Shown here: piece after piece, positions 14,187-15,586 of the stretch
How positions within the stretch are numbered: the stretch's first letter is position 1
How the letters are laid out: each line of letters starts with the position of its first letter
NCBI RefSeq assembly: GCF_900110025.1
Contig: NZ_FOCE01000006.1
Coordinates: 62,001 to 126,000 of the forward strand
Direction of reading: 5' to 3'
Length of the DNA: 64,000 nt
From: Gemmobacter aquatilis
GTDB taxonomy: Bacteria; Pseudomonadota; Alphaproteobacteria; Rhodobacterales; Rhodobacteraceae
Translations under genes and position numbers: made by a program
The notes under the pieces: generated by a model
Told to the model about the DNA's origin: nothing
Databases searched by the model: none
The model's input: only the letters and a program-made list of their open reading frames with translations

Positions 14187-14642
14187 TCAGCCCTCCGCCT
14201 CTTCTTCGAGGTTAAGCTTCATGTCCAGCAACACCTGCTGGATTGCCAGCGTCTCTCGCAGCAGGCGCTTGGCTTCGTTGACCGAGATCTTTCCGTCACC
14301 GATTGCCTGATTGTATTCCGCCATCAACATGCCAAAGCGCTGCGCCAGCGTCACCACATCGGCGTTGATGCCGCCAGACTGCGCGTTGCGCCGCTCACCG
14401 TCATAGCTCAGCGTGATGCCGCGTAGATCTGCCAGTGCCGCCGTAATATGCGGAAACCGCGCCGCCGCTTCCAGCTCGGCCACCACATCAATTGGCATGA
14501 AGCGGTCACCATGCTCGTCCTGATCCGAATAGTAGCGACCAATGGTCGCCTTGGATTTTCCCGTCAAGGCGCAAGCGGCCTCGATCCCGACATCCTTGAC
14601 CAGCGTTTCAGTGTGTTTCTTCAGATAAGTGGCAATGGACAT
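14187..14642 (-). CDS. Putative DNA-binding regulator, resembling phage CII-type regulatory proteins
   Basis: This 151-residue soluble protein starts MSIATYLKKHTETLV. Residues 15-45 (DVGIEAACALTGKSKATIGRYY, shown by its CALTGKSKATIGR core) look like a helix-turn-helix; the C-terminal third is a long acidic/basic helix, NEAKRLLRETLAIQQVLLD, likely for oligomerisation. I associate this layout with the chromosomal relatives of phage CII-like regulators found across Rhodobacterales, but I cannot confirm it. No phage genes are nearby, so it looks resident. The start at 14642 is the second in-frame ATG; the first at 14672 adds 10 residues without better ribosome-binding support. Confidence 0.6.
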   Translation of the reverse strand: MSIATYLKKHTETLVKDVGIEAACALTGKSKATIGRYYSDQDEHGDRFMPIDVVAELEAAARFPHITAALADLRGITLSYDGERRNAQSGGINADVVTLAQRFGMLMAEYNQAIGDGKISVNEAKRLLRETLAIQQVLLDMKLNLEEEAEG

Positions 14643-14735
14643 CCCGCAACCCTGCACATCCCAGCCCTGCACCGGGGGAAAACCGTCTTTATTTTCCCAT
14701 TAATAGCCTGTCAGGACTTTGTCATTCATAATCCA

Positions 14736-14990
14736 GTTCCGGGCAACCGGGACCTTAACGAGTGGTCGGCGCCCCAAGCGCCGGATCTGGGTGGGGGGTC
14801 CGCCGTATCTTGGCCAAACTGCGGTACCAACCGTGGGAACAGTGCTGCGGTGGGCCCGTCACCCGCAAACGGGCATGGCCAGCTGTGCCTCGCGTCCGAA
14901 GGGGCAAAACGGTAATGAGTAGTGACGCGTAAATTCTGTGCCGATATGTACGAGTCTGCGCAGCCCCGCTTGTGAAAAGCGGGGCTTTTG
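14736..14990 (+). ncRNA. Candidate structured non-coding RNA ending at an intrinsic terminator
   Basis: This gene-free stretch holds ordered stems on the plus strand. Hairpin 1, GTTCCGG/CCGGGAC at 14736-14753, is closed by a GCAA tetraloop. Hairpin 2, CGGCGC/GCGCCG, lies at 14767-14783. A long stem joins 14796-14805 with 14848-14857 (10 bp, two wobbles) and extends to GGGTG/CACCC (14789-14793/14860-14864); it encloses a small hairpin CGGT-ACCA-ACCG at 14822-14833. A terminator follows at 14962. A CATAAT at 14727-14732 could be a -10 element. GGGAACAG and CTGCGG (14835-14850) recall a conserved strand of 6S RNA, but the enclosed region is far too short for a normal 6S. It may instead be the leader of tdk. 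Confidence 0.35.
14962..14990 (+). terminator. Rho-independent terminator upstream of tdk
   Basis: AGCCCCGCTT (14962-14971) pairs perfectly with AAGCGGGGCT (14977-14986) around GTGAA and is followed by TTT. It lies 18 bp before the tdk start, so it ends a transcript that begins upstream in the gene-free region, or acts as an attenuator for tdk. Confidence 0.8.
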
Positions 14991-15007
14991 CGTTATCGCG
15001 GGGCATC

Positions 15008-15586
15008 ATGGCCAAGCTCTATTTCCACTACTCGACAATGAACGCGGGCAAATCGACAGCCCTGCTGCAAGCTTCGCACAATTACCGCGAAGGCGGGATG
15101 CAGACCTTTCTGATCACCGCCCAGCTTGACACGCGCGCAGGCGAAGGACGCATCGCCAGCCGGATCGGTATCGGCGATGCTGCGGATACTTTCGCACCCG
15201 ATGAAGACCTGTTCGCAAAGTTGCAGGCGCGGATAGCAAAAGGGCCGGTGGCCTGTGTCTTCATCGACGAGGCGCAATTCCTGACCAAAGCGCAGGTGTG
15301 GCAACTGGCCCGCGCGGTGGATGATCTGGGCGTGCCGGTGATGTGTTACGGGCTGCGCGTGGATTTTCAGGGCAACCTGTTCCCCGGCTCCGCCGCCCTT
15401 CTGGCTTGGGCCGACGAGATGCGCGAGGTGCGCACGATCTGTAACTGCGGGCGCAAGGCGACCATGGTCATCCGGCGCGGCCCCGACGGGCGCGCCTTGC
15501 GCGAAGGCGAACAGTTGCAGATCGGCGGGAACGAAACCTATGTCAGTCTGTGCCGCCGCCACTGGCGCGCGGCGGTCGGTGATTGA
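15008..15586 (+). CDS. tdk: Thymidine kinase (type II)
   Basis: This 192-residue enzyme phosphorylates thymidine with ATP in pyrimidine salvage. It has the P-loop MNAGKST (about 11-17), the Walker B-like VFIDEAQF (about 86-93) and a C-terminal zinc lasso formed by CNC and CRRH. Length and layout fit the tetrameric TK1-like family. The ATG at 15008 is preferred to an upstream in-frame start at 14972 that lies inside the terminator stem. With deoA, deoB and cdd elsewhere in this window it forms part of a deoxynucleoside salvage set. Confidence 0.95.
   Translation: MAKLYFHYSTMNAGKSTALLQASHNYREGGMQTFLITAQLDTRAGEGRIASRIGIGDAADTFAPDEDLFAKLQARIAKGPVACVFIDEAQFLTKAQVWQLARAVDDLGVPVMCYGLRVDFQGNLFPGSAALLAWADEMREVRTICNCGRKATMVIRRGPDGRALREGEQLQIGGNETYVSLCRRHWRAAVGD

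Follow-up and report, generated by a model that had tools for sequence, protein, structure and literature searches.

Protein-sequestering RNAs of the CsrB/RsmZ type carry a short unpaired motif repeated between hairpins and present GGA in loops for CsrA/RsmA. The RNA described here is similar in that a short unpaired motif recurs between hairpins, but the repeated motif is GUAAYGAGUG rather than a loop GGA. CsrA (PF02599) was not found in the Gemmobacter aquatilis genome, which argues against a CsrA sponge, although the same logic with another protein stays compatible. UpsM of R. sphaeroides is a small RNA derived from the mraZ leader; mraZ has no promoter of its own there and is fed by read-through of the UpsM terminator (PMC5089854). 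Our locus resembles that system in family (Rhodobacteraceae), in having several hairpins and in the placing of a terminator-bearing structured RNA a short way upstream of a gene, but UpsM precedes the promoterless mraZ whereas here a promoter-like element precedes tdk. StsR is 72 nt long, and neither identity fits, UpsM being a mraZ leader and StsR an RNA of that length. Brewer et al. (2021) described intergenic structured motifs of Rhodobacterales, as the present RNA also is; two of theirs belong to cco/hvrB and cysS, unlike ours, the comparison being with the available article text without its supplementary motif list (PMC8632094). No description of the RNA was found in the accessible parts of the literature, a comparison to which the supplements of PMC8632094 and PMC5107571 (167 Paracoccus sRNAs) did not belong.

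The window is the whole stretch of 64,000 nucleotides of the G. aquatilis genome that was analysed. Its gene order at the locus is DEAD-box helicase, CII-like gene (opposite strand), RNA and tdk, with 14736-14990 forming the gap between the divergent gene at 14187-14642 (minus strand) and tdk at 15008-15586. A search with Rfam models, as the preliminary description had proposed, gave no family at threshold: there were no matches at gathering score in the window with Rfam 15, five matches only at chance level (E 0.15 to 5.9) in 14400-15300, and sub-threshold matches only, none of them on the RNA core, at the loci of 15 relatives. That description had also seen a likeness to 6S RNA in GGGAACAG/CTGCGG within the window. 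This likeness did not hold up, as RF00013 had no match up to E 10 in 14400-15300 and the 6S-like match of this genome lies on another contig (G000:C25:617539-617695, 40.4 bits against a gathering score of 46.4); together these rule out 6S RNA as the identity of the element. Of the 6S matches in 23 family genomes, 4 reach the gathering score. Our preferred reading, held with moderate confidence and built on sequence comparison, is that the locus would be a standalone small RNA gene of a family missing from Rfam 15 and conserved in part of the Rhodobacteraceae.

Structure and conservation of the RNA core

Positions 14736-14857 form the core of a structured RNA that is conserved across some of the Rhodobacteraceae. 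In order, its elements are the P1 hairpin, an unpaired box (GUAAYGAGUG), the P2 hairpin, a linker rich in G and the long P3 arm. The features of the locus are as follows.

14187-14642, minus strand: CII-like regulator, divergent, the usual companion of the RNA; ATG at 14642; PHROG 101 'CII-like transcriptional activator', E 1.2e-13
14675-14704, no strand assigned: inverted repeat GGGGAAAA-N9-TTTTCCC followed by ATTAAT; putative operator/promoter of the CII-like gene, outside the RNA
14718-14725, no strand assigned: TTTGTCAT, putative −35 of the CII-like gene, ATGACA on the minus strand; TTGTCA present in 39 of the 46 upstream DNA rows, which were aligned on it
14727-14732, plus strand: CATAAT, 4 nt ahead of P1 and a candidate −10 of the RNA; conserved as A.AAA in the alignment
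14736-14753, plus strand: hairpin P1, probable 5' end of the RNA; 7 bp with a GCAA loop
14755-14764, plus strand: box copy 1, unpaired, UUAACGAGUG, in the P1-P2 linker
14766-14784, plus strand: hairpin P2 with a C-rich loop, from the minimum-energy fold and covariation
14785-14795, plus strand: G-rich linker from P2 to P3; GGGTGGGG-like in many rows, absent in for example L106, L089 and L074
14796-14857, plus strand: arm P3, 14796-14807 with 14846-14857 and a variable inner part, from the fold and covariation
14912-14921, plus strand: box copy 2, GUAAUGAGUA; score 13.8 with the matrix trained on copy 1
14947-14956, plus strand: box copy 3, degenerate, UGUACGAGUC; found by eye, below the matrix listing threshold of 4.5
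14962-14989, plus strand: intrinsic terminator, probable 3' end in this genus; stem 14962-14986
14970-14996, plus strand: tdk promoter-like element TTGTGA ... GTTAT, overlapping the terminator (inside and after its hairpin)
15008-15586, plus strand: tdk, thymidine kinase; PF00265, E 3.9e-49

The plus strand of 14736-14992 folds with −125.4 kcal/mol (z −3.81, equalled by none of 200 shuffles) and the minus strand of the same interval has a z of 0.13, so that the plus strand alone folds better than chance. All elements of the ordered stem series that had been described before tdk are present in the sequence and in this minimum-energy fold. The GGGTG/CACCC extension named among them does lengthen P3 in the G. 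aquatilis genome (14789-14793 with 14860-14864, the inner hairpin also being present) but lies outside the modelled conserved structure.

Homologous loci were collected with a Tdk protein search, which gave 567 relatives, the best 80 loci of which were kept. Single-sequence nhmmer on the regions upstream of tdk matched 33 of the 80 (weakest E 0.49), and a profile made from 29 of the 34 nhmmer rows (window included) matched 45 of the 80 plus the window (weakest E 0.53). A MAFFT alignment (A1) was made of 31 of the 33 prepared sequences, L106 and L112 being omitted, and P1, P2 and P3 were placed on this alignment with a script and by eye, once single folds had been inspected. Over these 31 loci 95.0% of 839 cells are paired, both-side changes occur in 17 of 28 pairs (6.1 when shuffled) and the covariation score of 0.290 compares with 0.193 after shuffling and no more than 0.103 after sliding. 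RNAalifold, run unguided, returned the same three helices with both-side changes in 14 of 25 pairs. A model-fitted alignment (A3; 79 sources, mostly earlier matches of model R1, of which 75 matched) shows both-side changes in 27 of 28 pairs; it is biased towards the structure by construction, its rows having been chosen by model match, whereas the MAFFT alignment is free of that. The 75 rows include the same or close organisms from two sources and identical rows were counted once, leaving 74 distinct ones, in which P1 is paired in 90.5% of cells with both-side changes at 8 of 8 pairs (5 of 8 on the MAFFT alignment), P2 in 96.0% with 7 of 8, and P3 in 94.7% with 12 of 12 (7 of 12 on the MAFFT alignment). 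Thus the check for covarying pairs upstream of tdk in relatives that had been suggested for this locus revealed compensatory changes in all three helices. A pseudoknot between the P2 loop, whose region holds CCCC in 55 of 75 sequences, and the G-rich linker looked feasible by eye in many rows and was rejected, the loop being nearly invariant and L089, L074 and L106 having no G run.

The P1-P2 linker is the best-conserved unpaired part of the RNA, with one G in 75 of 75 sequences and GAGT in 66 of 75, and this linker box is kept while the P2 stems undergo compensatory changes of sequence. With a matrix whose training set was limited to copy-1 sites (30 of 31 linkers), 21 sites were found downstream of P3 in 36 loci. 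The reverse strand gave 1, and shuffles averaged 1.9 ± 1.2 and never exceeded 7 over 200 runs; with the most stringent threshold the figures become 12, 0 and 0.5. These post-P3 sites fall in 14 of the 36 loci, the other 22 lacking a scored second copy, and 10 of the 21 come from three of four same-genus relatives; they are not independent because the loci are related. L195 and L196 have five matrix-scored copies each, copy 1 included, and the window has two scored copies and a degenerate third. Elsewhere in the genome the box is not enriched (GTAAYNAGTR has 10 matches, the reversed pattern 66), for which reason no multi-target pairing is visible, and a genome-wide antisense seed was rejected as its function.

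Model R1 matched 37 of 198 family genomes and the refined model R2, built partly from R1 matches, 41 of 197, in each case with one match per genome. Within the genus of the window 8 of 11 genomes have the RNA (8 of the 9 with a completeness of 90% or more and a contamination of 5% or less). The label of undescribed structured RNA given in the preliminary description therefore stands as far as it was tested, on covariation, on its presence in these 8 of 11 genomes and on the lack of an Rfam match at gathering score. A sample of the class gave matches in 5 of 190 genomes, namely the genome of the window, one other family member and three weak ones (E 1.1e-4 to 0.009); none of these three lies beside a CII-like gene, tdk or a helicase, and because they have no shared neighbours they were treated as chance and spread beyond the family was rejected. 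The large genome searches used strict filters that miss diverged copies, and several unmatched loci still show the upstream box described below together with box-like linkers (by eye). Four diverged loci (L119, L142, L156 and L161) keep the upstream box with a weak or no model match and have a C-rich CATCCCCAG stretch, a pattern found in 10 of 74 regions against 0.7 in shuffles; L093, L148 and L156 carry GTAACCAGT linkers.

Terminator, tdk and the leader alternative

The stem of the strong terminator previously reported at 14962-14990 is in the minimum-energy fold, and a similar hairpin with a T run lies before tdk in 6 of 8 same-genus members (the window and L195-L199, L198 being weaker; judged by eye), but the scan alone is not significant, because it found one terminator-like site in 14600-15100 where shuffles average 0.8. 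Beyond the genus a shared terminator was not found: out of 94 region entries a permissive scan picked 22, of which 14 turned out to be P2 and 3 to be the window locus, entered under three different names. Within 14962-14996 the terminator hairpin and the tdk promoter-like element share bases, with the −35-like TTGTGA inside the hairpin, and by eye the arrangement is similar in the same-genus loci L195-L199.

The preliminary description had left the choice between a new sRNA and an attenuator for tdk. According to the latter the RNA would form a long leader at the 5' end of the tdk mRNA, and the level of thymidine kinase would be set by read-through at the terminator, much as with UpsM. A terminator just before tdk in the window is what this would predict, and tdk is in the flank of 27 of the 30 RNA loci that were fetched (out of 37 matches). 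An attenuator or riboswitch would, however, be expected always to lie directly upstream of the gene it regulates, and three of the 30 loci (L170, L186 and L191, the last a weak match of 31.6 bits) have the RNA with no tdk in the fetched flanks of about 1.5 kb; the distance from RNA to tdk, moreover, varies from 77 to 292 nt (34 near-complete profile matches). The tdk promoter-like pattern (TTG, 19-22 nt, NNTAN; picked after viewing the sequences and compared with mononucleotide shuffles) occurs in 36 of 48 loci with the RNA (1.4 when shuffled), which speaks for separate transcription of tdk, but in only 6 of 33 without it (0.7 when shuffled), which favours the attenuator; given this lower share, a tdk promoter of that form is not established as general. 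In part of the loci an alternative pairing, such as an attenuator might require, can join the right arm of P3 to a further copy of the left arm that follows it; the mean z is −1.16 for 32 loci (4 of the 36 were left out as too short), with 9 loci below −2. This pairing is absent from the window (z 0.03) and, being confined to a subset of loci, was rejected as a general feature, and there is likewise no general terminator. Taking both sides together we consider the attenuator unlikely, and of the two earlier proposals the sRNA fits better in view of the tdk-less loci, the variable distance and the promoter-like element.

The divergent CII-like gene and its upstream repeat

The CII-like gene (PHROG 101) is a phage-type regulator kept next to the RNA, although absent from some RNA loci or present there as a remnant. 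It scored 28.9 bits against NCBIfam YmfL (cut-off 90) and 18.4 bits against Pfam CP76 (cut-off 26), both under the cut-off, and was matched in 64 of 120 family genomes, one match being a fragment with stops. The DNA between this gene and the RNA contains GGGGAAA-N10-TTTTCCCATTAAT, whose conservation across 39 sequences is strong, most positions carrying 1.4-2.0 bits, and TTTTCCCATTAA has a single exact match in the genome. The repeat at 14675-14704 and TTGTCA may be the operator and promoter of the CII-like gene on the minus strand (ATGACA, 15 nt, ATTAAT); the promoter scan did not flag this putative promoter. MraZ boxes were considered for the repeat and rejected, as the mraZ locus L131 has no GGGGAAA or CCCATTAA on either strand; its positions 2273-2303, near the MraZ-domain match, hold four TGGG at 10-bp spacing that resemble MraZ boxes. 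The MraZ-domain match of the G. aquatilis genome lies elsewhere (C22:36291) and has neither sequence on either strand.

A different explanation would make the RNA part of a module with the CII-like gene, the regulator controlling the RNA or the RNA serving the regulator. The gene is present at 27 of the 30 fetched RNA loci (the helicase at 13 or more, a lower bound because the flanks are only about 1.5 kb) and a conserved inverted repeat lies between gene and RNA. Moreover, the 80 tdk loci comprise 42 with gene and RNA, 10 with the gene and no RNA match, 5 with the RNA and no gene, and 23 with neither, so that loci having the gene show the RNA in 42 of 52 cases and those lacking it in 5 of 28. 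When the 33 tdk loci without RNA were retested with R2 only L117, which has a CII-like gene, came up, and weakly (E 0.017); the 23 with neither, tried with nhmmer and later with R2, gave none, L094 being uninformative with only 75 nt upstream. Against the module, the RNA was matched with no CII-like gene found in L176, L191, L081, L083, L097 and L099 and with only a remnant in L066/L183 (matches in L081, L099 and L191 are weak, 20 to 32 bits). The strict upstream box pattern is present in 40 of the 52 tdk loci that have the gene and in none of the 28 that lack it, and hence absent from all 5 gene-less RNA loci of this set, which fits a box that serves the gene and not the RNA; L097 and L066, with no intact CII-like gene, retain degraded upstream boxes and TTGTCA. 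Such a module strikes us as improbable. Neither neighbour is absolutely tied to the RNA, which among the tdk loci accompanies the CII-like gene.

That the stems are conserved DNA or chance pairing in GC-rich sequence with no RNA is very improbable despite the high G+C, given both-side changes far above shuffled and slid controls, strand-asymmetric folding and box sites numbering 21 on one strand versus 1 on the other.

Transcription and possible role of the RNA

Transcription probably starts at P1, at about 14736. The candidate −10 has counterparts in L081, L191 and L176, which also show CATAAT or CATAAA. TTTGTCAT had been considered as the −35 of the RNA and was dropped, though kept in L066 and L097, because it is missing from several loci without a CII-like gene (TTGTCA was not seen in L176, L191, L081 and L099). 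In this genus the predicted transcript would run from P1 to the terminator near 14989, about 255 nt. A standalone small RNA is what we favour: the element is a conserved structured intergenic gene that is not tied to one mRNA, as would be expected of a trans-acting sRNA. Several observations weigh against it, however. The promoter scan gave no sigma-70 match before P1 and CATAAT has no recognisable −35; 10 of the 52 tdk loci with a CII-like gene gave no RNA match (counting L117, weak); tdk is still the neighbour at 27 of 30 fetched loci; and the lack of a common terminator outside the genus, the lack of box enrichment elsewhere in the genome and the confinement of post-P3 boxes to 14 of 36 loci, with nearly half of the sites (10 of 21) in three same-genus relatives, all count on the same side.

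If the standalone reading is right, P1, P2 and P3 may serve to keep the unpaired linkers between them open, and the GUAAYGAGUG linker may be a recognition element, since it is kept while the hairpins change and recurs after P3 in part of the family. The box would then bind either an RNA-binding protein, in several copies and sponge-like, or target mRNAs, and we lean slightly to a protein because the copies are repeated. By analogy with the logic of CsrB, we tentatively suggest that the RNA could be a multi-site sponge for an RNA-binding protein of the Rhodobacteraceae that recognizes unpaired GUAAYGAGUG, while regarding this more specific proposal as doubtful.

The locus shows a terminator and the promoter-like element of the next gene on the same bases. 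It adds to a well-studied bacterial family an RNA family backed by covariation, whose core is defined and for which a covariance model and a candidate recognition element are given, and the box offers a concrete bait for the partner of the RNA.
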